Part shown: in pieces, positions 3,992-57,350 of the stretch | Numbering within the stretch: the stretch's first letter is position 1 | Layout of the letters: the number at the start of each line of letters is the position of its first letter | DNA from: Columbia Basin potato purple top phytoplasma | GTDB taxonomy: Bacteria; Bacillota_I; Bacilli_A; Acholeplasmatales; Acholeplasmataceae | DNA: 64,000 nucleotides | Reading direction: 5' to 3' | NCBI RefSeq assembly: GCF_028595955.1 | Contig: NZ_JANHJP010000001.1 | Coordinates: 1-64,000 of the forward strand | Translations under genes and position numbers: made by a program | The notes under the pieces: generated by a model | Databases searched by the model: none | The model's input: the letters and a program-made list of their open reading frames with translations, nothing else | Told to the model about the DNA's origin: nothing

Positions 3992-6505
3992 ATGTATAAA
4001 AAAAATCGATCAAAAATTTTTAATTATAAAAAGAGTATATTAATTCTTTTTTTAATTATTTTTTTTATATATACTTTTAAATTTGATAAAGATAATATAA
4101 CAAAAATTTGTAATAGTCCTGATCAAGCTTTATATGAAATACGTTCAGCTTTAATAAATTTATTAGTTAGTATTTTAGGAAAAATAGTTATTTTTCTTGT
4201 TTTGCTTTGTTTATATTATAATTTTTATCATTTAGTTGAAATTAAAAGATTAAAGAATCGATTAAATTTATGGGCTAACTTATCTTATTATATTAATCAA
4301 GTAGGTGAGGAAGTTTTTAACGAATTACCAATCGGCATTGTTTTAGTCGATAATGTTTTTCATAAAATTCAATGGATTAATAATTATGCTAATAATATTT
4401 TAAAAAAACCTGATTTAGATGCTTATTTAAAAGACGTTAATTCTTCTATGTTTGAATTATTAGAATCTTCAAATAATAAAGTTGTTTTACATATAGGAGA
4501 AGAAGTTTTTGATTGTTTATATAAAAAAGAATTTAATGTTTTTTATCTTTTTAATGTTACCGAAAGAGAACAAATAAAAGAAATTTATAATCAAAAAACT
4601 CCTACTTTAATTTTTGTATCTTTTGATAATTTAGATAATTCATTTAAAAAATTAGATTTGTCAGAACAATCTCAAATTAAAGTAGAGTATTTAAGTGCTT
4701 TATCAGATTTTTTTGAAATTTATGAAAGTTATTTAAAACAATTATCGGATGATAAATTTTTAGTTTTATTAAATTATTATCAATTGGAAAATATAATTAA
4801 GGATAAATTTTCCATTTTAAAAACAGTTCGTGATATATCGAATAAATATAAATTAAAAATTACTCTTTCTATAGGAGTTGCTTGTTATAATTTACCTTAT
4901 AATAAAATTTCTAATTACGCTCAAAATGCTTTAGAATTAGCTCAAAAAAGAGGTGGAGATCAAGCAGTTGTTAATGTAGAAAATAAAAAAATATTATATT
5001 TTGGAGCAACAACTACTTCTTTGGGCACTGATTCTAAAATATCAGCTCGAATTAATTCTGAAATAATTGAAGATTTGATTTTGAAACATCAAAATTGTTT
5101 TATTATGGGTCATATTCATCCTGATTTAGATTCTTTAGGTTCTATGATACTTTTTTATAAAATAGCTTCATCTATTAACACAAATTATAAACATTATTTA
5201 ATTATTGACGAAGACAAGACAGATGCTAATTTTAAATTTATTTATCAAGATTTATTTCAAGAAGAAAAACATTTAGCTAAACAGATTATAAAAACATCGC
5301 AAGCAATAAAAATGATAAATGAAAATTCACTTTTAGTTATTGTTGATACTCAAAGTTTAGATATCGTTAATAGTCCGGAATTATTAAAATTAACTTCTAA
5401 TGTAATTATTTTAGATCATCATAGAGCAACAGAAAATACTATTAATAATATTTTTTCTTATGTCAATTCTATGGCTTCTTCAACTGTTGAAATTTTAACT
5501 GAATTTATTAGTTTTTTTAAATATTCTATTGAAATAACTCCTTTAGAAGCTAGTTTGATTTATGGTGGAATGGTTATAGATACAAATTATTTTACTGCTC
5601 GTACTAGTTCAAGAACTTTGGAAGCGGCAGCTAAATTACTTTCTTTAGGCGCTGATGTTGCGAAAGTGAAATTTTGGTTAAGAGAAGAATTAAATAAAAT
5701 TTTAGAAATGAATGAATTAATTGCTAAAATGGAACTTTATATGGGAAAATTCGCTATTATTAGAAATAATAAGATATGTAATGATCGTTCTTTTTTAGCT
5801 AAAATTTCTGAATATGTTTTAAATATTCAAAGTGTAGATGCTGCTTTTACAGTTTCCAAATTACAAGATAATAAAATAGGTATAAGCGCACGTTCTTATA
5901 GCGAAATAAATGTTCAAATAATTATGGAACAAATGGGAGGCGGTGGACATATTAATAGTGCAGCTACCCAAATAGAAAGTGATAGTTTAGATGATATAAT
6001 TTCTCAATTAAAAAATATATTATCTTTAGAATATAAAGAAAGTTTAAAAAATATGAAAATTATTTTATTAGAAGATGTCAAAAATAGAGGCAAAAAAAAT
6101 GATATTATCGAAATTAAATATGGTTACGGTAATTTTTTAATTAAAGAAAAAAAAGCACTTTTAGCTACTGAACAAAATATTAAACAAATAAAAAAAGAAC
6201 AAATATTACAAGAAGAAGCTCACAAAAAACATAATTTATTAATGCAACAAGTAAAAAAAGATATTGATGATAAACAAATTGATATAATAGTTAATATAGG
6301 TCCACAAGGTAAAATGTATGGTAAAATAACTTTACAACAAATTGTGGATGAATTTCATAATAAATATAATATATTAATTAATAAAAAGAAACTTGTTTTA
6401 GAAAGCGAAATTAATTCTTTAGGAAAATACAAAGCAAATGTTTTTTTAACAAAAGATATTATTGCTTCTTTTATTATAAATATTAAAGATCTAGACAAGA
6501 AATAA
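3992..6505 (+). CDS. gdpP-rplI: GdpP-like c-di-AMP phosphodiesterase fused to ribosomal protein L9
   Basis: One 837-residue frame carries two proteins that are separate neighbours in Bacillus. Residues ~13-75 hold two membrane segments, ~100-170 a PAS-like domain and ~200-330 a degenerate GGDEF domain. The DHH phosphodiesterase domain follows, with GHIHPDLDSLG (~373) and LDHHRATEN (~473). DHHA1 carries GGGGHINSAATQ (~649). This half should hydrolyse c-di-AMP at the membrane. From residue 688, MKIILLEDVKNRGKK begins a complete L9 of 150 residues. There is no stop between the halves. A weak purine-rich stretch before the internal ATG at 6053 could allow separate L9 synthesis. Otherwise L9 must be cut off, or ribosomes would be tethered to the membrane. 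Confidence 0.93.
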   Translation: MYKKNRSKIFNYKKSILILFLIIFFIYTFKFDKDNITKICNSPDQALYEIRSALINLLVSILGKIVIFLVLLCLYYNFYHLVEIKRLKNRLNLWANLSYYINQVGEEVFNELPIGIVLVDNVFHKIQWINNYANNILKKPDLDAYLKDVNSSMFELLESSNNKVVLHIGEEVFDCLYKKEFNVFYLFNVTEREQIKEIYNQKTPTLIFVSFDNLDNSFKKLDLSEQSQIKVEYLSALSDFFEIYESYLKQLSDDKFLVLLNYYQLENIIKDKFSILKTVRDISNKYKLKITLSIGVACYNLPYNKISNYAQNALELAQKRGGDQAVVNVENKKILYFGATTTSLGTDSKISARINSEIIEDLILKHQNCFIMGHIHPDLDSLGSMILFYKIASSINTNYKHYLIIDEDKTDANFKFIYQDLFQEEKHLAKQIIKTSQAIKMINENSLLVIVDTQSLDIVNSPELLKLTSNVIILDHHRATENTINNIFSYVNSMASSTVEILTEFISFFKYSIEITPLEASLIYGGMVIDTNYFTARTSSRTLEAAAKLLSLGADVAKVKFWLREELNKILEMNELIAKMELYMGKFAIIRNNKICNDRSFLAKISEYVLNIQSVDAAFTVSKLQDNKIGISARSYSEINVQIIMEQMGGGGHINSAATQIESDSLDDIISQLKNILSLEYKESLKNMKIILLEDVKNRGKKNDIIEIKYGYGNFLIKEKKALLATEQNIKQIKKEQILQEEAHKKHNLLMQQVKKDIDDKQIDIIVNIGPQGKMYGKITLQQIVDEFHNKYNILINKKKLVLESEINSLGKYKANVFLTKDIIASFIINIKDLDKK

Positions 6506-6553
6506 TATTTCTTGAATTATTTTATAAAATTTATTGGATGAAATTTATTAATA

Positions 6554-7900
6554 ATGAGTGAACAAAATATAAAATTACCTTTTTATCTAGATGCAGAACA
6601 AGCTATTTTAGGTATTATTTTATTAGATCCTAAAAAAATTTTGTCTACGATAGATAGATTAGAAACAGAAGATTTTTTTAATATTGAACATCAATATATT
6701 TATGAAGCTATGAAAACTTTGTTTAAAGAGAACAAAGATATTGATTATTTGTCGGTATTGAAAATTTTAGAACAAAAAAAGCAAAAAATAGGAGACGGTG
6801 CCAAATATTTATTTCAATTAAGTAACAATATTCCGTCTATATATCATTTGGATACTTATATTGATTTTGTGCGCGATGCCTCTCTTAAAAGAGAAATAAT
6901 TACTACTGCATCGGAAATTTATAATGAGGGAATTAGCAATCAGAATATTGATTTTCAACATTATTTAAATATTACAGAAGAAAAAATTTTTCAAATTTCT
7001 AAAAAGAAAAAAACAAGTAATCTTGTTGAAATAAAACAATTATTAAAAGAAATTGAACATAAAACTATTTATAACAAAAGAGAAAATAAAATTATTGGTT
7101 TAAGTACTGGTTATCATAATTTAGATGATATCACTTTGGGATTAAAACCAGAAGAACTTATAATTTTAGCAGCAAGACCTTCTATGGGTAAAAGTAGTTT
7201 TATGTCTAATCTTGCGATTAATATAGCTAAAAAAAATCAAAAAGCTTTTGTTGTTATTTTTAGTTTAGAAATGTCTAATGAACAATTAGGTTCTAGAATG
7301 TTAAGTTCTGAAAGTCAAATTTTTCATAAAAAAATTCAATTAGGACTTTTAAATGAGCAAGAAATAAATTTATTAAAGGTAAATTCTCAAAATTTACAAA
7401 ATTTAAATATTTTTTTCAATGATTCTGCAAGTGCTAATATATTAGATATTCGCGCTCAATGTCGTAAAATGAAAAACCAAAATAAATTAGATTTTGTTAT
7501 TATTGATTATTTACAATTAATCGGAAAAGTTAATAAACCTAATTTTAAAAATTTTTTTAATCGTCAAGAAGAAATAGCTGATATTTCTAAAAGTTTAAAA
7601 CAAATGGCTCGTGAATTAAAAATTCCTGTTTTGGCTTTATCACAGTTATCACGTGAAGTAGAAAAAAGAGAAGATAAAAGACCTATTTTATCTGATTTAA
7701 GAGATTCCGGAAGTATCGAACAAGATGCCGATATTGTTATGTTTTTATATCGTCCTAATTATTATAATAAAGATATGAAAACAGAATTATCAGATTTAGG
7801 TTATACAGAATTAATTATTTCTAAAAATAGACAAGGATCTGTAGGAATTAAAAAATTTAATTTTAATTTAAATTGCCTTTCTTTTTTTGAAATAGAATAA
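6554..7900 (+). CDS. dnaB: Replicative DNA helicase DnaB
   Basis: DnaB is the ring helicase that unwinds DNA at the replication fork. The N-terminal domain begins with the typical LPFYLDAEQAILGIILLD (residues 7-24). The RecA-like ATPase domain has Walker A AARPSMGKSSF (~residue 213) and Walker B FVIIDYLQLIG (~315). The C-terminal stretch ending SKNRQGSVGIKKFNF is also characteristic. Length (448 residues) is normal. It follows gdpP-rplI by 48 bases, matching the rplI-dnaB order of Bacillus. Confidence 0.96.
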   Translation: MSEQNIKLPFYLDAEQAILGIILLDPKKILSTIDRLETEDFFNIEHQYIYEAMKTLFKENKDIDYLSVLKILEQKKQKIGDGAKYLFQLSNNIPSIYHLDTYIDFVRDASLKREIITTASEIYNEGISNQNIDFQHYLNITEEKIFQISKKKKTSNLVEIKQLLKEIEHKTIYNKRENKIIGLSTGYHNLDDITLGLKPEELIILAARPSMGKSSFMSNLAINIAKKNQKAFVVIFSLEMSNEQLGSRMLSSESQIFHKKIQLGLLNEQEINLLKVNSQNLQNLNIFFNDSASANILDIRAQCRKMKNQNKLDFVIIDYLQLIGKVNKPNFKNFFNRQEEIADISKSLKQMARELKIPVLALSQLSREVEKREDKRPILSDLRDSGSIEQDADIVMFLYRPNYYNKDMKTELSDLGYTELIISKNRQGSVGIKKFNFNLNCLSFFEIE

Positions 7901-7952
7901 AATTAAAAAACATTTGTATTTTTTTAATAAAAAAAGGAATTTATGATATAAA

Positions 7953-9035
7953 ATGCTAGAAAAACTCGAAATAATAAAACAAAAATATTTAAATTTACAA
8001 AAAAAAATATTATCTGATACGAAAAATTTAAATAATATAGAATTATTAAAACAAATAAATGAATTAAAAAAAATTGTTTCTGTTTATGATGAATACCTTA
8101 ATTTAATAAAAGAAAAGGAAAATCTTAAAAAATTAATTACACAAAATAATTTACAAAACTCACAAAATGAAAATGAATTTGTTTTATTATTTCAGGAAGA
8201 AAAAAAGATTTTAGATACTCAAATTCAAGAAAAATTAGATAAATTGCAAAAAAAACTATTTACTAAAGATGAAGATAAAAACAAAAATGTTTTAATGGAA
8301 ATTAAAGCAGCAGCTGGAGGAAGTGAATCTAATCTTTTTGTAGCTGATTTATTTCGTGCCTATATTAAATATGCTGAAAGTAAAAAATGGAAGATAGATA
8401 TTATTAATTTAGTTTCTGGTGTTAAAAGTGGTATTTTTGCAGTAGAAATGATGATTTATGGCGATGATGTTTATTCTTTTTTACAATATGAATCAGGAAT
8501 ACATAGAGTTCAAAGAGTTCCTGAGACAGAAAAAAGAGGAAGAGTTCATACTTCTACAGTTAAGATTTTAGTATCTTCTGTATTAGAAGAGACTAAGATA
8601 GATTTAAATTGGAATGATATTCGAGTAGATACGTTTAATTCAAGTGGTCCAGGAGGACAATCAGTTAATACTACTAAATCAGCAGTTCGTTTAACTTATA
8701 TTCCTACAGGCGATAGTGTAGCTTGTCAGATAGCTAAAAGTCAACATCAAAATAAAGAAAAAGCTTTTCAATTATTAAAAAACAAGGTATATAATAAAAT
8801 AATATCTGAAAAACAAAAACAACAAAATGAAATTAAAAAAAATTTAATTAGCAAAGGAGATCGTAGTTCTAAAATAAGAACTTATAATTATGCTCAAAAT
8901 AGAATTACTGATCATCGTATAAATTTAACTTTACAAAAATTAGATTTTTTCATGGAAGGCAGAATAGATTTAATTATAGAACCTTTAAAAGAAGAATTTA
9001 ATAAACAAAATTTGAAAGAACAAATAAAAATATAA
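7953..9035 (+). CDS. prfA: Peptide chain release factor 1
   Basis: RF1 ends translation at UAA and UAG. The anticodon-like tripeptide region is RVPETEKRGRVHTSTV, giving PET at the PxT site. The catalytic GGQ loop is SSGPGGQSVNTTKSAVR. Length is 360 residues, as usual. In Firmicutes prfA is normally followed by prmC, which methylates the GGQ glutamine, and then by a tsaC-type gene. Here the tsaC-like gene follows directly after 4 bases, so prmC is missing from this locus. The start is ATG with an AAAAGGA-like site upstream. Confidence 0.95.
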   Translation: MLEKLEIIKQKYLNLQKKILSDTKNLNNIELLKQINELKKIVSVYDEYLNLIKEKENLKKLITQNNLQNSQNENEFVLLFQEEKKILDTQIQEKLDKLQKKLFTKDEDKNKNVLMEIKAAAGGSESNLFVADLFRAYIKYAESKKWKIDIINLVSGVKSGIFAVEMMIYGDDVYSFLQYESGIHRVQRVPETEKRGRVHTSTVKILVSSVLEETKIDLNWNDIRVDTFNSSGPGGQSVNTTKSAVRLTYIPTGDSVACQIAKSQHQNKEKAFQLLKNKVYNKIISEKQKQQNEIKKNLISKGDRSSKIRTYNYAQNRITDHRINLTLQKLDFFMEGRIDLIIEPLKEEFNKQNLKEQIKI

Positions 9036-45757: not shown

Positions 45758-47101
45758 TTATTTTACAGATTCTAAATATTTTAACCCTACTAAGTTTAAT
45801 AAATGCCATGGTTTGCTAAAATATGGATGAAAAGAAAAGTCTTTGAAAGCTAAAGCATCTACAGTAGTTTGTTGTTCTATAAACACACTTAAAGTATTTA
45901 TTTTTTCAGTTAAATCAGTATTAGATAAGATTTGCCCTCCTAAAATAATACCTGTTTCTTTTTCAAACACAATTTTTAATAATACAGAATCATATTCAGG
46001 CATAAATTCAGGTCTGTTAGCATCTTTTATGGTAATTGAATCATAATTAATGTTTAATAGTTTTGCAGCGTGTTCATTTAAACCTGTAGAAGAAATACTT
46101 AAATCATTAATTTGAATACAACTTGTTCCTTGAGTTCCTAAATATTTGCAAATATTTTTTTTAATGTTTAATCCTACGATAGTACCAGTTCTTATAGCGT
46201 TAGTAGCTAAAGGCATATACATATTTTTTTTATTTAATGGATTATAAATAATATTTATATTATCTCCGCAACCATACACATCAGGATGAGAAGTTTGTAA
46301 ATATTCATTAACTTTTAAAGCGTTATTAGAATCTAATTCTAAAATATCTTTTGCTAAATCTGTGTAAGGTCTAAAACTAATACATGCGATAACCATTTCT
46401 GTTTCATAACTGTTTTTATCAGTTATAACATGAGTAACTAAATCGTTTTGAGTTTTAAATTCAACTACTTTTTGACTTAAAGCTAAATTAACATTATGTT
46501 GTTGTAAACTATCTTCAGCTATTGAAGTAAATTCTTTATCTAGATATTTAGGCATTATTCTATCTTCTATATCTATTAAAGTTACTTCTTTTTTTTGTTT
46601 TGAAAAAGCTTCGGCTAATTCTACTCCTATGTAACCAGCACCTATGATTGTTATTTTATTAACATTTTTTCCGTAATCTATAATATTATTAGCATGTTCT
46701 AAATTTTTAGATAAAAAAACATTTTTAGATTGAATTCCTTTTATTTTAGGTATAACCGGCCAAGAACCTGTAGACAAAATCAATTTATCGAAATGATCAA
46801 TAAATTCTTTACCAGTTTTTAAATCTTTTGCTAAAATATTTTTTTTCTCTAAATCGATTTTAATGACTTCATGTTTTAATTTTACATCAGCACCTAAATT
46901 TGATAATTCTTCAGCGCTAGAATAAAATAAACCTTTTCTATCTTTTACTACTCCGCCAATATATAAGGCTATTCCGCAAGATAAAAAAGAAACATTGTCA
47001 TTTTTTTCATAAATACTTATTTCAATATCTTTATTTTGTTTTAATATTGTTCTAACCGCAGCTGTTCCTGAATGATTACAACCAATAACAATTACTTTCA
47101 T
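45758..47101 (-). CDS. nox: NADH oxidase / CoA-disulfide reductase family flavoenzyme
   Basis: A 447-residue FAD- and NAD(P)H-dependent pyridine nucleotide-disulfide oxidoreductase. The N-terminal FAD site is VIVIGCNHSGTAAV. The redox-active Cys42 lies in SFLSCGIALYIGG, exactly where NADH oxidases and peroxidases carry it. The NADH site is ITIIGAGYIGVELAEAF (~150), and the second FAD motif is VYGCGDNI. The C-terminal region contains GTQGTSCIQINDLSISSTG, closer to water-forming NADH oxidase than to CoA-disulfide reductase, though the two are hard to separate by eye. It would recycle NADH from pyruvate dehydrogenase and remove oxygen. It is monocistronic. Confidence 0.85.
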   Translation of the reverse strand: MKVIVIGCNHSGTAAVRTILKQNKDIEISIYEKNDNVSFLSCGIALYIGGVVKDRKGLFYSSAEELSNLGADVKLKHEVIKIDLEKKNILAKDLKTGKEFIDHFDKLILSTGSWPVIPKIKGIQSKNVFLSKNLEHANNIIDYGKNVNKITIIGAGYIGVELAEAFSKQKKEVTLIDIEDRIMPKYLDKEFTSIAEDSLQQHNVNLALSQKVVEFKTQNDLVTHVITDKNSYETEMVIACISFRPYTDLAKDILELDSNNALKVNEYLQTSHPDVYGCGDNINIIYNPLNKKNMYMPLATNAIRTGTIVGLNIKKNICKYLGTQGTSCIQINDLSISSTGLNEHAAKLLNINYDSITIKDANRPEFMPEYDSVLLKIVFEKETGIILGGQILSNTDLTEKINTLSVFIEQQTTVDALAFKDFSFHPYFSKPWHLLNLVGLKYLESVK

Positions 47102-52062: not shown

Positions 52063-52636
52063 CTAACAACAAATTTATTTATTACAAGGATAAAATCCCA
52101 AAACGAAATAAATAAAATGTTTCTATACTGTATTATTTTAACATAATATTTTATAATAATATTTATTATATATTTATGCTTTTAAAACATAAATAAATTA
52201 AATATTGTAAATGTTGTTAATTGTGAAAATCCTAGATTCAAATAAGTTATAATTATTAAGTAAGTTTGTAATATTATAAAATTTATAAATTATTTTGATT
52301 ATGAATTATTTTAAATGTTTAGATAAATTTTTATAATATGGCATAAATAGTTATTTATATATTTTTTTTAATTTTTTAATTGTAGAATTGATATATGTTT
52401 TATATAATTTTGAGTATTTTTGATTTAATTTTTTTTATTATGTTTATAATTGAAATATGTTTTGCATAAAACAATGCAAAAACGAAATACGAATGTACAT
52501 TAAAATAAAAAATATGTGTATTTATTTATGCATTTATATTTTATGTATAGTAATATAATATTGTAATTTTGATTATTATAAAAAATATTGTAATTTTAAT
52601 TATTATAAAAAAATTAGTAAAAAGGGCTTTTTGTTT
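52063..52636. other. Non-coding region upstream of the pdh operon
   Basis: No credible ORF is seen. This divergent gap must hold the promoters of the tRNA-Leu gene (minus) and of pdhA (plus). The most structured part is a 27-base direct repeat just before pdhA. Several TATAAT-like strings occur, but in DNA this AT-rich none can be singled out. Confidence 0.5.
52559..52612 (+). repeat. 27-bp tandem direct repeat upstream of pdhA
   Basis: Units 52559-52585 and 52586-52612 differ at one base (GATT versus AATT in the middle). The second unit ends about 10 bases before the pdhA ribosome-binding site. It could be an operator or the product of slippage. Confidence 0.8.
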
Positions 52637-53737
52637 ATGGAAGAAATATTTGAATTATATAATCCTTTAAAAAAAGAAAAACTGCAAATTTTAGATGTAG
52701 AAGGTAAAGTAATTAATCCAGATTTAGAACCTAAAATATCTAAAGATGAATTAATGAAAATGTATAAAACAATGGTTTTATGCAGAATTTCTGATTTAAA
52801 AGCTGTTCAATATCAACGTCAAGGTAGAATGTTATCTTATGTTATTAATCGAGGTCATGAAGCTTCACAAGTAGGAACTGCTTCTGCTTTACAAAATCAA
52901 GATTGGATTTCGCCTTATTTTAGGGATATAGGTTTATATTTGTATCGTGGTATTTCATTGGAAAATATATATCTTTATTGGTTTGGTAATGAAAAAGGTT
53001 CTAAAATGGATCCTAATAAACGTATTTTACCTGTTAATATTATAATAGGTTCTAGTGTTACTATGGGATCAGGTTTAGCTTTAGCAAGTAAAATACAAAA
53101 TAAAGATGAAGTCACTTTAGCTACGATAGGCGATGGTGGTACTGCTCATGATGAATTTTATGCAGGTTTAAATTTTGCTTCTGTTTTTAAAGCTCCTTTA
53201 GTAGTTGTTATCCAAAATAATCAATATGCTATTTCTACTCCTAGACAAATCGCTTCTAATTCTGAAACTTTAGCTCAAAAATGTTATGCTTTCGGAATTC
53301 CAGGCATGTTAGTTGATGGTAACGATGTTTTAGCGGTTCATACAGCTGTTAAATATTTTACTGAAAGATCACGACAAAAAAAAGGTCCTGGTTTGTTAGA
53401 AATTGTAACTTATCGTATGGGCGCTCATACAACTAATGATAATACAACTTTATATCGTTCGAAAGAAGAAGAGGATGAATGGCAATTAAAAGATCCTATC
53501 GTTCGTTTTCAAAAATATTTATTAAATAAACAAATTTTAACACAAGATATAATAGAACAAATAGACAAGGAAACAGAAGAATATGTTTCTCAAGTTCATA
53601 AAAATATTATGTCCTATGGTACTAAAGTAGAACCTATTGAAATTTTTGAGCATATTTATAGTGAAATGACTCCTGAATTAAAAAAACAATATTCCGAATA
53701 TGAAGAATTTTTAAAAATAAAAAATCAAAAAAAATAA
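52637..53737 (+). CDS. pdhA: Pyruvate dehydrogenase E1 alpha subunit
   Basis: E1 alpha, with E1 beta, decarboxylates pyruvate using thiamine diphosphate. The cofactor motif runs from IGDGGTAHDEFYAGLNFA to the NN of VIQNNQYAIST (~170-205). ISPYFRDIGLYLYRG and the regulatory-loop region RMGAHTTNDNTTLYR are also family-typical. Length is 366 residues from the ATG at 52637. A TTG at 52631 would add two residues but leaves only about 4 bases after the AAAGGG site. It is the first gene of pdhA-pdhB-lipoyl-E2-lpd, all on the plus strand. Confidence 0.95.
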   Translation: MEEIFELYNPLKKEKLQILDVEGKVINPDLEPKISKDELMKMYKTMVLCRISDLKAVQYQRQGRMLSYVINRGHEASQVGTASALQNQDWISPYFRDIGLYLYRGISLENIYLYWFGNEKGSKMDPNKRILPVNIIIGSSVTMGSGLALASKIQNKDEVTLATIGDGGTAHDEFYAGLNFASVFKAPLVVVIQNNQYAISTPRQIASNSETLAQKCYAFGIPGMLVDGNDVLAVHTAVKYFTERSRQKKGPGLLEIVTYRMGAHTTNDNTTLYRSKEEEDEWQLKDPIVRFQKYLLNKQILTQDIIEQIDKETEEYVSQVHKNIMSYGTKVEPIEIFEHIYSEMTPELKKQYSEYEEFLKIKNQKK

Positions 53738-53883: not shown

Positions 53884-54870
53884 ATGTCAAATAAAGTTTT
53901 AATGAATTTATTACAATCTATTAATCATACTTTAGATATTCAATTAGCAAAAAATCCAAAAATAGTTTTATTCGGTCAGGATATTGGTAAATTAGGCGGA
54001 GTTTTTCGAGTAACAGCCGGTTTACAAGATAAATATGGAAAAGAACGTGTTTTCGATAGTCCAATAACAGAATCTGGTATTGTAGGAAATGCTATAGGAA
54101 TGTCTATTAATGGATTAATTCCGATTGCAGAAATTCAATTTGATGGTTTTGTTTACGTAGGTTTACAAGATCTAATTTCTCATGCAGCTAGAATGAGAAA
54201 CCGTTCTAGAAATAGTTTTACATGTCCTATGGTATTAAAATTTCCTGTAGGAGGAGGAGTAAAAGCTTTAGAACACCATTCAGAATCTTTAGAAGTTATT
54301 TTAGGTTCGATTCCAGGTTTAAAAGTAGTTGTTCCTTCTAATCCTTATGATGCTAAAGGACTTTTAATCGCGGCTATCAATAGCCCGGATCCTGTTATTT
54401 ATATGGAGCCAAAACTTTTATATCGTGGTAAAAAAGAAGAAGTACCTTTAGAAGAATACGAAGTGGAAATAGGAAAAGCTAAAGTAGTTAAAGAAGGCAA
54501 TGATATTACTCTAGTTGCTTGGAGCTCTGCTGTTCCAATTTCTAAATTAGCTATAGATGAATTAGATAAAGAAGGTATTTCTATAGAATTAATAGATTTA
54601 AGAACTATTAATCCAATAGATAAAGAAACAATTTTAACTTCTGTTAAAAAAACAGGTAGATTATTAGTAGTTCATGAAGCTACTCAAACTTATGGCCCAG
54701 CTGGAGAAATAATAACTTTAGTTAATGAACATATTTTTGATTCTTTAAAATCAGCTCCTCAAAGAGTTACAGGTTTTGATATTATTATGCCTTTAGCTAG
54801 AGGAGAATATCATCAAAATTTAAATCCTGATAAAATTATTTACAAAATTAAAAAAATATTCAATAAATAA
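53884..54870 (+). CDS. pdhB: Pyruvate dehydrogenase E1 beta subunit
   Basis: E1 beta completes the thiamine diphosphate site and passes acetyl groups to lipoate. Typical stretches are VLFGQDIGKLGGVFRVT, RVFDSPITESGIVGNAIG, PVGGGVKALEHHSESLE and the C-terminal transketolase domain with VVHEATQTYGPAGEI. Length (328 residues) is normal. It is followed by the free lipoyl protein after 30 bases, with a ribosome-binding site in the gap. Confidence 0.96.
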   Translation: MSNKVLMNLLQSINHTLDIQLAKNPKIVLFGQDIGKLGGVFRVTAGLQDKYGKERVFDSPITESGIVGNAIGMSINGLIPIAEIQFDGFVYVGLQDLISHAARMRNRSRNSFTCPMVLKFPVGGGVKALEHHSESLEVILGSIPGLKVVVPSNPYDAKGLLIAAINSPDPVIYMEPKLLYRGKKEEVPLEEYEVEIGKAKVVKEGNDITLVAWSSAVPISKLAIDELDKEGISIELIDLRTINPIDKETILTSVKKTGRLLVVHEATQTYGPAGEIITLVNEHIFDSLKSAPQRVTGFDIIMPLARGEYHQNLNPDKIIYKIKKIFNK

Positions 54871-54900: not shown

Positions 54901-55131
54901 ATGTTTGAATTACGTTTTTCAGATATAGGAGAGGGAATTACGGAAGGAAAAATTATTAAATTTTTGTGCAAAGTAGGAGATCAAGTTAAAGAAGGACAAG
55001 ATTTATTAGAAGTTGAAACTGATAAAGTTTCTGTTTTTATTCCTTCTGTTGCTACAGGTAAGATTAAAGAAATTTTTTTCAAAGAAGGCGATGATATCGA
55101 AGTTGGAGATTTATTATTAACAATCGAATAA
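54901..55131 (+). CDS. Free-standing lipoyl-domain protein of the PDH complex
   Basis: A 76-residue protein consisting of exactly one biotinyl/lipoyl domain. It starts FELRFSDIGEGITEGKI and carries the lipoylation site as VETDKVSVFIP (Lys43), followed by GKIKEIFFKEGDDIEVGDLL. This is normally the N-terminal domain of E2. A TAA stop ends it and a separate gene encodes the E2 core 37 bases on. Its own AGGAAAGG site lies about 12 bases upstream. It should act as a mobile carrier of acetyl groups between E1 and E2 and of electrons to E3. No subunit-binding domain follows, so how it is held in the complex is unclear. Confidence 0.9.
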   Translation: MFELRFSDIGEGITEGKIIKFLCKVGDQVKEGQDLLEVETDKVSVFIPSVATGKIKEIFFKEGDDIEVGDLLLTIE

Positions 55132-55168
55132 TTTTTCGGTAATTTAGAAAAAGGAAAAGTTATAATAT

Positions 55169-55927
55169 ATGGAAAATAATAATAATAATAATAATATAAA
55201 AAGTGATAACAAAAACACAGAAAATGAAATAGAAATTTGTAAAATTTCAAAAATAAGAGAAGTAATATCTAAGAAAATGGTTGTTGCAAAAACAGAAATT
55301 CCTGATGTGACTGTTACAGAAGAAATAGATATTACTGATTTAGTTTTTTTAAGAAAAAGATTAAAAAATGAATTAGAACCTCAAGGTATTAAATTAACTT
55401 ATATGGCTTTTATAGCTAAGGCAGTTATTTCTGCTTTAACTGAATTTCCTTTGTTTAATTCTAGTTTTGACTCTGTTAAAAACGAAATAATTATAAAAAA
55501 ATTTATTAATTTAGGTATTGCAGTAGATACTCCGCGGGGTTTAATGGTTCCTAATATTAAAAACGCTGATAAATTAAATATCATTGAGTTAGCTCAAGAA
55601 ATTAATAAATTAGCTAAAAATGCTCAAGAAGGCAAATTAACATTGAAGCAACTCCAAAATGGAACTTTTACTTTAAGTAATTTTGGTTCTATTGGCGGTC
55701 TACAATGCACACCTATTATTAATTTGCCTGAATTATCTATTTTAGGGATTGGCAAAATTATTAAAAAACCAGTAGTTAAAGATAATAATATTTGTATTGC
55801 TGATATTTTACATGTTTCTTTGACATTCGATCATCGTGTTATAGATGGTGCTGATGCTTCTAGATTTTTAAACAAAATTACTTCAGTATTAACTAATATT
55901 ACAGAATTAGAAAAATACATTTATTAA
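55169..55927 (+). CDS. pdhC: PDH E2 catalytic core without lipoyl and subunit-binding domains
   Basis: A 252-residue acyltransferase core that moves acetyl from lipoate to CoA. After a low-complexity start with seven Asn from an AAT repeat, the core begins ICKISKIREVISKKMVVAKT and ends with the catalytic LTFDHRVIDGADASRFLNKI. A usual E2 is about 400 residues or more: lipoyl, ~35-residue subunit-binding domain, core. The lipoyl domain is the preceding gene. The 37 bases between the genes and the ~25 residues before the core leave no room for the subunit-binding domain. The gene has its own AAAAGGAAAAG site. The Asn tract could grow or shrink without breaking the frame. Confidence 0.92.
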   Translation: MENNNNNNNIKSDNKNTENEIEICKISKIREVISKKMVVAKTEIPDVTVTEEIDITDLVFLRKRLKNELEPQGIKLTYMAFIAKAVISALTEFPLFNSSFDSVKNEIIIKKFINLGIAVDTPRGLMVPNIKNADKLNIIELAQEINKLAKNAQEGKLTLKQLQNGTFTLSNFGSIGGLQCTPIINLPELSILGIGKIIKKPVVKDNNICIADILHVSLTFDHRVIDGADASRFLNKITSVLTNITELEKYIY

Positions 55928-55970: not shown

Positions 55971-57350
55971 ATGACAAAATACGATATTTTAATTATTGGT
56001 AGTGGCCCGGGGGGCTATGTTTCTGCTATTAAAGCAGCTCAGTTAGGCGCTAAAGTTGCTTTAATAGAAAAACATAAAGTTGGTGGTATTTGTCTTAATT
56101 ATGGTTGTATACCAACTAAATCATTTTTAAAAAGCGCTAAGGTTTTTGATATTGCTAAAAATATTGATAATTACGGTATTAATAAAATAAATGATATTTC
56201 ATTTGATTGGTTATCTATTTTGAATCGTAAAGATAAAATAGTTAAACAATTATATAATGGTATTCTTTTTTTATTAAAAAAAAATAAAATTGATTTATAT
56301 AATTCTTTTGCAGAAGTTTTAACTCCAAATTTAGTTCAAGTAGGGGATAAACAATTAGAAACTAAAAAACTTATTATTGCTACAGGTTCTAGCGCTTTTA
56401 TACCTCCAATTCCTGGAGCTAAAGAATCTTATGAAAATAAATTTCTTTATACTAGTAAAGAATTAGTTCAATTAGAAAAATTTCCTAAGAAATTAATTAT
56501 TATTGGTGGAGGAGTTATTGGAGTAGAATTCGCAACTCTTTTTGCTAAATTAAATTCTGAAGTTATAATTATAGAAAAGCAAAAAAATATATTAAGTAAT
56601 ATAGATCATGATATTGTTAAACTTTATGCTAAAAAATTAAAAAAAGATCGTATTAAAATTTATACAGATTCTACAGTAGTAAAAATAGATAATAATAAAG
56701 TTCATTATGAAATGGATAATCAAATATATCAGGATGAAGCAGATTTAATTTTAATGGCTGTCGGTATTAAACCTAATTTAGATGGAATTCAAAATTTGAA
56801 TTTAAAAACAGATAGAAGCGGTATAATTACTGATAATTTTTTAAGAACTTCTGTTGAAGGAGTTTATGCTATTGGAGATGTGAATGGTAAATATACGTTA
56901 GCTCATGTTGCTAGTCATGAAGGTATTATAGCTGTTTCTCATGCTTTAAACTCTAAAGAACATCTTTTCCCTATGGATTATAATTTAGTTCCTAATTGTA
57001 TTTATGGCTTTCCTGAAATATCTACTATAGGTATGACAGAAGAACAAGCAAAAGATAAGGAAATAAATTATAAAGTTTCAATGTTTCCTGTCAGTGCTAT
57101 AGGAAAAGCTTTAGCGGATGGAGAAACTGATGGTGTTGTTAAATTAATTGTTAATAAAGATAATTCAAAAATTTTAGGTATGCATATATTATCTTGTAAC
57201 GCTACAGAATTAATTAGCGAAATTGGTGTTGCTATAAGCCTAGAAGCAACAGTTTATGATATGATCAAAGTAATTCATCCTCATCCTACTTTATCAGAAA
57301 TAATTTCGGAAACTTTTTTAGGAGCAATAGATAAACCTATTCATCTTTAA
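55971..57350 (+). CDS. lpd: Dihydrolipoamide dehydrogenase (E3)
   Basis: E3 reoxidises dihydrolipoamide and makes NADH. FAD site ILIIGSGPGGYVSAIKAAQLG and redox disulfide GGICLNYGCIPTKSFL (~40-53) are intact. The NAD site is LIIIGGGVIGVEFATLF, the second FAD motif is VYAIGDVNGKYTLAHVA, and the C-terminal active-site HPHPTLSE is present. At 459 residues there is no N-terminal lipoyl domain, which some mollicute and streptococcal E3 proteins carry. It ends the pdh operon and a terminator follows. Confidence 0.96.
   Translation: MTKYDILIIGSGPGGYVSAIKAAQLGAKVALIEKHKVGGICLNYGCIPTKSFLKSAKVFDIAKNIDNYGINKINDISFDWLSILNRKDKIVKQLYNGILFLLKKNKIDLYNSFAEVLTPNLVQVGDKQLETKKLIIATGSSAFIPPIPGAKESYENKFLYTSKELVQLEKFPKKLIIIGGGVIGVEFATLFAKLNSEVIIIEKQKNILSNIDHDIVKLYAKKLKKDRIKIYTDSTVVKIDNNKVHYEMDNQIYQDEADLILMAVGIKPNLDGIQNLNLKTDRSGIITDNFLRTSVEGVYAIGDVNGKYTLAHVASHEGIIAVSHALNSKEHLFPMDYNLVPNCIYGFPEISTIGMTEEQAKDKEINYKVSMFPVSAIGKALADGETDGVVKLIVNKDNSKILGMHILSCNATELISEIGVAISLEATVYDMIKVIHPHPTLSEIISETFLGAIDKPIHL

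Follow-up and report, generated by a model that had tools for sequence, protein, structure and literature searches.

The window analysed, 64,000 nucleotides of the Columbia Basin potato purple top phytoplasma (contig NZ_JANHJP010000001.1, positions 1 to 64,000), encodes a pyruvate dehydrogenase (PDH) set together at one locus, in the order E1 alpha, E1 beta, lipoyl domain (LD), E2 acyltransferase core and E3, all on the + strand. The pdhA ORF for E1 alpha (52631..53737, first ATG at 52637) has E1_dh as its sole full-length Pfam domain, and the pdhB ORF for E1 beta (53884..54870) has Transket_pyr and Transketolase_C, with relatives among the solved structures bound to the peripheral subunit-binding domain (PSBD), 1w85. 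The pdhD ORF for E3, dihydrolipoamide dehydrogenase (55971..57350), has Pyr_redox_2 and Pyr_redox_dim and is matched by solved E3 structures including 1ebd. No extra domain was detected by Pfam on the E1 or E3 of the window, including a lipoyl domain on E3, in agreement with the initial annotation, in which neither enzyme had gained a domain.

The E2 of this locus is encoded by two ORFs in different reading frames. The first (54901..55131, +) encodes a stand-alone LD protein of 76 amino acids, in which Biotin_lipoyl covers residues 3-75 (80.6 bits) and the lipoyl-lysine motif is ETDK. The second (55169..55927, +) encodes the acyltransferase core of 252 amino acids, in which 2-oxoacid_dh covers residues 20-247 (287.9 bits), a short Asn-rich N-terminal tail lies ahead of the core, and the active-site motif is DHRVIDG; neither a lipoyl domain nor a PSBD was detected in this protein by Pfam. 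The 37-base spacer between them (55132..55168, +) contains the ribosome-binding-site-like sequence AAAAAGGAAAAG ahead of the second ATG. The initial annotation had described exactly this arrangement, a 76-codon gene for the LD only, followed after 37 bases by a separate core gene with its own ribosome-binding site, and its statement that no PSBD lies between the two holds, as the Pfam domains leave nothing between them. Elsewhere in the window, at 45851-46792 on the - strand, a distant E3-like flavoprotein frame (450 aa) shows 28% identity to E3; given this low similarity, it is unlikely to be a further dihydrolipoamide dehydrogenase.

In the textbook view, complexes of this kind depend on the PSBD and the tethered lipoyl arm for their assembly and for active-site coupling. 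Canonical Gram-positive and Mollicute PDHs, such as those of Geobacillus stearothermophilus, acholeplasmas, 'Ca. P. mali' and the aster-yellows group, share with the window locus homologous E1 alpha and beta, E2 core, E3 and LD, as well as the gene order. In contrast to their LD-PSBD-core E2, in which the LD is covalently tethered to the core, the LD in the window is on a separate ORF and the PSBD is gone, with ten fused relatives as positive controls.

The assembly of this phytoplasma has draft status, with 71 contigs and a completeness of 90.5. E3_binding (PF02817, the PSBD) had zero matches in it, and 10 control genomes were positive; since the PSBD of all ten fused relatives scored over the cut-off, the search is sensitive. 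The remaining sub-cut-off PF02817 matches were partial, scored 11-16 bits and lay within other ORFs. A profile made from phytoplasma PSBDs gave a sole match in the assembly, 16.6 bits at C11:89332-89400 inside ruvB, which was rejected as a hidden PSBD and regarded as a chance match. The genome contains one E2 core and one LD, the latter being the sole PF00364 match in the assembly. Two of the objections that the initial annotation had raised against itself, a second complete E2 gene elsewhere and a PSBD hidden in another protein, were thus not borne out by the genome search.

The 76-residue protein might instead be a lipoate relay of the GcvH/LipL type, with the complex using another lipoyl domain as its carrier, and stand-alone lipoyl relays do exist, namely GcvH and GcvH-L of S. 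aureus (PMC7873978). However, no other LD was found in the assembly, so that nothing else would be able to receive the lipoate, which makes a relay highly improbable. The genome has no match to the GCV_H family, and the LD protein scored 12.7 bits against GCV_H, under the cut-off of 22.2. The lipoate ligase LplA is present.

The comparison of the pdh locus across phytoplasmas and acholeplasmas that the initial annotation had proposed covered 29 phytoplasma genomes. Eighteen of these encode a split LD and a core without PSBD, 10 encode a fused LD-PSBD-core E2 (421-463 aa, PSBD above the Pfam cut-off), and one is without the locus; the E2 of the acholeplasma outgroup is fused. The split species include 'Ca. 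P. vitis', luffae, phoenicium, pruni, pini, sacchari, oryzae, citri, australasiaticum and the Texas Phoenix palm phytoplasma, and the fused species include tritici, australiense, a strawberry phyllody phytoplasma and mali. We also count the aster-yellows strains OY-M and AY-WB as fused. The pdh genes of the split phytoplasmas are adjacent with their order retained, and LplA was found in 29 of the 29 genomes. Beyond the phytoplasmas, the surrounding family and order yielded few short E2 frames; three of these were examined and retained the PSBD, and several others were fragments.

The LD and core ORFs lie side by side and retain the ancestral order, as would be expected if a sequencing error, which the initial annotation had also named as an objection, or a programmed frameshift joined both into an ordinary E2. 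However, no PSBD-coding sequence is available to be joined, and the split is common to 18 species, in which the spacers between LD and core range from 18 to 77 nt, the three relative frames occur in 7, 4 and 7 species, and ribosome-binding-site-like motifs precede most of the second ATGs. This variation of spacer and frame excludes an error or frameshift, the probability of which we regard as negligible.

A tree was built from E1 alpha, E1 beta and E3, leaving out the genes of the trait itself (LD and E2). In this tree, the 18 split species form one clade with support of 100/100, the fused 'Ca. P. mali' is sister to it, and eight fused acholeplasmas form the outgroup. These results indicate that E2 fission and PSBD loss occurred once, on one branch, and were then kept.

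The dN/dS values between split pairs were 0.16-0.38 for the E2 core and well under 1 in most pairs for the LD. The lipoyl lysine is retained in 18 of the 18 split species, and the E2 DHRxxDG residues (D221, H222, R223, D226 and G227) are invariant. These sequence comparisons indicate that both split genes are under purifying selection. In the rice/sugarcane/Cynodon subgroup, the LD dN/dS was 0.39-0.84, suggesting weaker constraint there. The lipoyl motif has drifted in these phytoplasmas to ENDK, LNDK and EYEK, and in G007, G012, G013 and G017 (L041, L050, L049 and L042) the LD is evolving much faster than E1, E2 and E3.

In one further phytoplasma, G028, the LD, the E2 and the beginning of E3 are missing exactly at the end of its 750,803-base record, which ends within the E3 gene (L169, G028:C1:744000-750803, 5900-6802). 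E1, E2 and LD were sought at the opposite end of the record and were not found. Because the gap coincides with the record end, a loss is not shown, and either an assembly gap or a real loss would account for it.

The faster LD evolution in one subgroup, the reductive nature of these genomes and the case of G028, though its gap falls exactly at a record end, might be read as signs of early decay, with a broken E2 in a complex that is being lost. Against this, 18 species have kept both parts since one ancestral split, with intact frames and active sites and low dN/dS, and LplA is universal. These observations make decay unlikely, and we consider its probability to be very low.

A class-wide search revealed short E2 frames in further Mollicutes. 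Most of these, considered as candidates for PSBD-less E2s, were rejected as artefacts in genomes where TGA encodes Trp, and among those fetched and read with this code the PSBD was present in all but G213 and G195. In these two genomes, code-4 Mollicutes of one genus (g50), a 238-aa E2 core without PSBD is followed by a 92-aa LD-only ORF (L194, G213:C1:404000-420000, 7721-8676; L193, G195, 7129-8084). On the 708-kb main contig of G213, E1 alpha and beta, E3 and LplA lie at other loci, such that the PDH genes are dispersed over three loci (further loci of the G213/G195 architecture, L214, L216 and L220), and this contig contains a single LD and a single E2 core, with no PSBD found on it.

The G213 E2 clusters with mycoplasma E2s, in most of which the PSBD was demonstrated, with support of 100/99, and a tree joining it with the split phytoplasmas was rejected (AU p = 1.0e-6). 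These results indicate that the mycoplasma lineage reached a free LD and a PSBD-less core independently of the phytoplasmas. Since PSBD loss and a free LD have co-occurred twice, the two are suggested to be linked; once the subunits no longer dock, there would be little left for a tether to offer.

For the E2 core, AlphaFold2 on the split-E2 alignment gave a confident prediction (mean pLDDT 81.6), except for residues 1-18, which were below 50 and are predicted to be disordered. The closest solved E2p cores matched the predicted window E2 with Z of 28, and the predicted structure leaves no space in which a PSBD could be hidden. The N-terminal tails of E2, which in the window comprise residues 1-18, are of low complexity and align poorly across species, and the tails of the LD proteins of the split species are short and variable. 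Therefore, no conserved docking segment is visible in either protein.

In the Geobacillus PDH, the E1-beta C-terminus is presumably part of the PSBD site. In the split clade, this tail is variable, longer and basic, and the standard deviation of its length is 3.1 residues, compared to 0.5 in the fused phytoplasmas and 1.0 in the acholeplasmas. The PSBD binding site of the Geobacillus enzyme is at the two-fold axis of E1 (PMC2663715). The irregular E1-beta tail is consistent with a lost PSBD interface, but does not prove it. The alignment columns that changed in the split clade are found in E1 alpha as well as in E1 beta and E3. Because E1 alpha also changed, these columns are no specific sign of a lost interface, and a specific decay of the PSBD interface of E1 or E3 was set aside as not provable.

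The missing PSBD does not show that subunit association is missing. A bound complex might form by other means, with E1, E3 and perhaps the LD docking on the E2 core directly or via an unrecognised adaptor. A precedent for an adaptor is the eukaryotic 2-oxoglutarate dehydrogenase (DLST/E2o with MRPS36/KGD4), which shares with the split phytoplasmas an E2 without PSBD, and in which an unrelated adaptor, MRPS36, is proposed to have taken over E3 recruitment from the PSBD (PMC9974300); unlike in the split phytoplasmas, the LD of E2o is still fused to the core. The adjacency and retained order of the pdh genes in the split phytoplasmas also fit a stoichiometric assembly, although the order may be mere inheritance, and in the mycoplasma case the genes are scattered. 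The lack of a visible docking segment in the E2 or LD tails and of a gained domain on E1 or E3 also argues against such docking, which we consider possible but the less probable course.

The reading preferred here, judged from sequence, is that the locus encodes a functional PDH in which E2 is divided between two proteins, the PSBD has been lost and a free lipoyl protein shuttles between the enzymes, which we regard as probable. With a slighter leaning, we propose that this PDH would run without any tethering, a freely diffusing LD serving a separate E1, E2 core and E3, and that such a system arose on at least two occasions among wall-less bacteria whose genomes are reduced. The initial annotation had left the choice between a complex assembled differently and a diffusing carrier like GcvH; this either/or still stands as the best reading, and the second independent origin supports it.

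In the proposed mechanism, LplA would lipoylate the small LD protein, which would diffuse to E1 for reductive acetylation, visit the self-assembled E2 core for acetyl transfer to CoA, and be reoxidized at E3, in the manner in which GcvH shuttles in glycine cleavage. Such a cycle would dispense with both a covalent tether and PSBD docking, at the price of the channelling that a tethered arm provides. E1 accepts the isolated lipoyl domain as a substrate, but not free lipoic acid (PMC6270654), and by our own estimate a modest copy number would give a micromolar concentration of LD in a phytoplasma-sized cell. As the LD protein is the only lipoyl protein found, no other was found to serve E1 and E3. 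GcvH, used here as a working analogy, is likewise a lipoyl protein that stands alone and would be expected to serve several enzymes, whereas the phytoplasma LD falls outside the GCV_H family and belongs to the E2-type lipoyl domains.

According to a 2023 study (PMC9974300), the PSBD is retained by E2p and E2b in all three kingdoms; the split phytoplasmas contradict this statement for E2p. The 'Ca. P. sacchari' genome paper simply gives pdhA, B, C and D (PMC10577292). In the open-access literature searched, neither a mention of the phytoplasma E2 split, nor a PDH with a free LD plus no PSBD, nor an untethered LD in a PDH was found. An LD on E1 or E3 and PSBD loss in eukaryotic E2o are already known, whereas the combination of a free LD with a missing PSBD in a PDH is new within the literature searched. 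The actinobacterial hybrid PDH/ODH (OdhA) also departs from the standard 2-oxoacid dehydrogenase layout (PMC10415282); OdhA unites E1 and E2 activities by fusion, whereas the split phytoplasma E2 represents a fission accompanied by PSBD loss.

At least 18 species, forming one clade, have had neither PSBD nor tether since their common ancestor, and a mycoplasma lineage repeats this independently; these split PDHs raise the question of how much of the textbook acetyl-CoA-making complex is needed. If the untethered PDH is true, the giant-complex architecture would be dispensable in those wall-less bacteria. The fused sister 'Ca. P. mali' offers a natural before/after comparison, making the contribution of tethering to flux testable with purified proteins.

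The LD has also left E2 elsewhere, being located on E3 in Mycoplasma hyopneumoniae, Neisseria and Alcaligenes and on E1 in Zymomonas (PMC7873978), but these PDHs carry it fused to a different subunit. Where the LD lies off E2 in the mycoplasma loci checked, the PSBD is kept on E2, except in G213 and G195. In G348 and G204 (L186 and L187), the E2 of 352-358 aa lacks a lipoyl domain and has two PSBD matches in tandem, and an adjoining ORF of about 575 aa, which is probably E3, bears the LD. In Spiroplasma-like and related code-4 genomes (L173-L178), an LD is present both on E2, which keeps its PSBD, and on the adjoining ORF; in G325, the case checked among these, the LD-bearing ORF beside E2 is E3.
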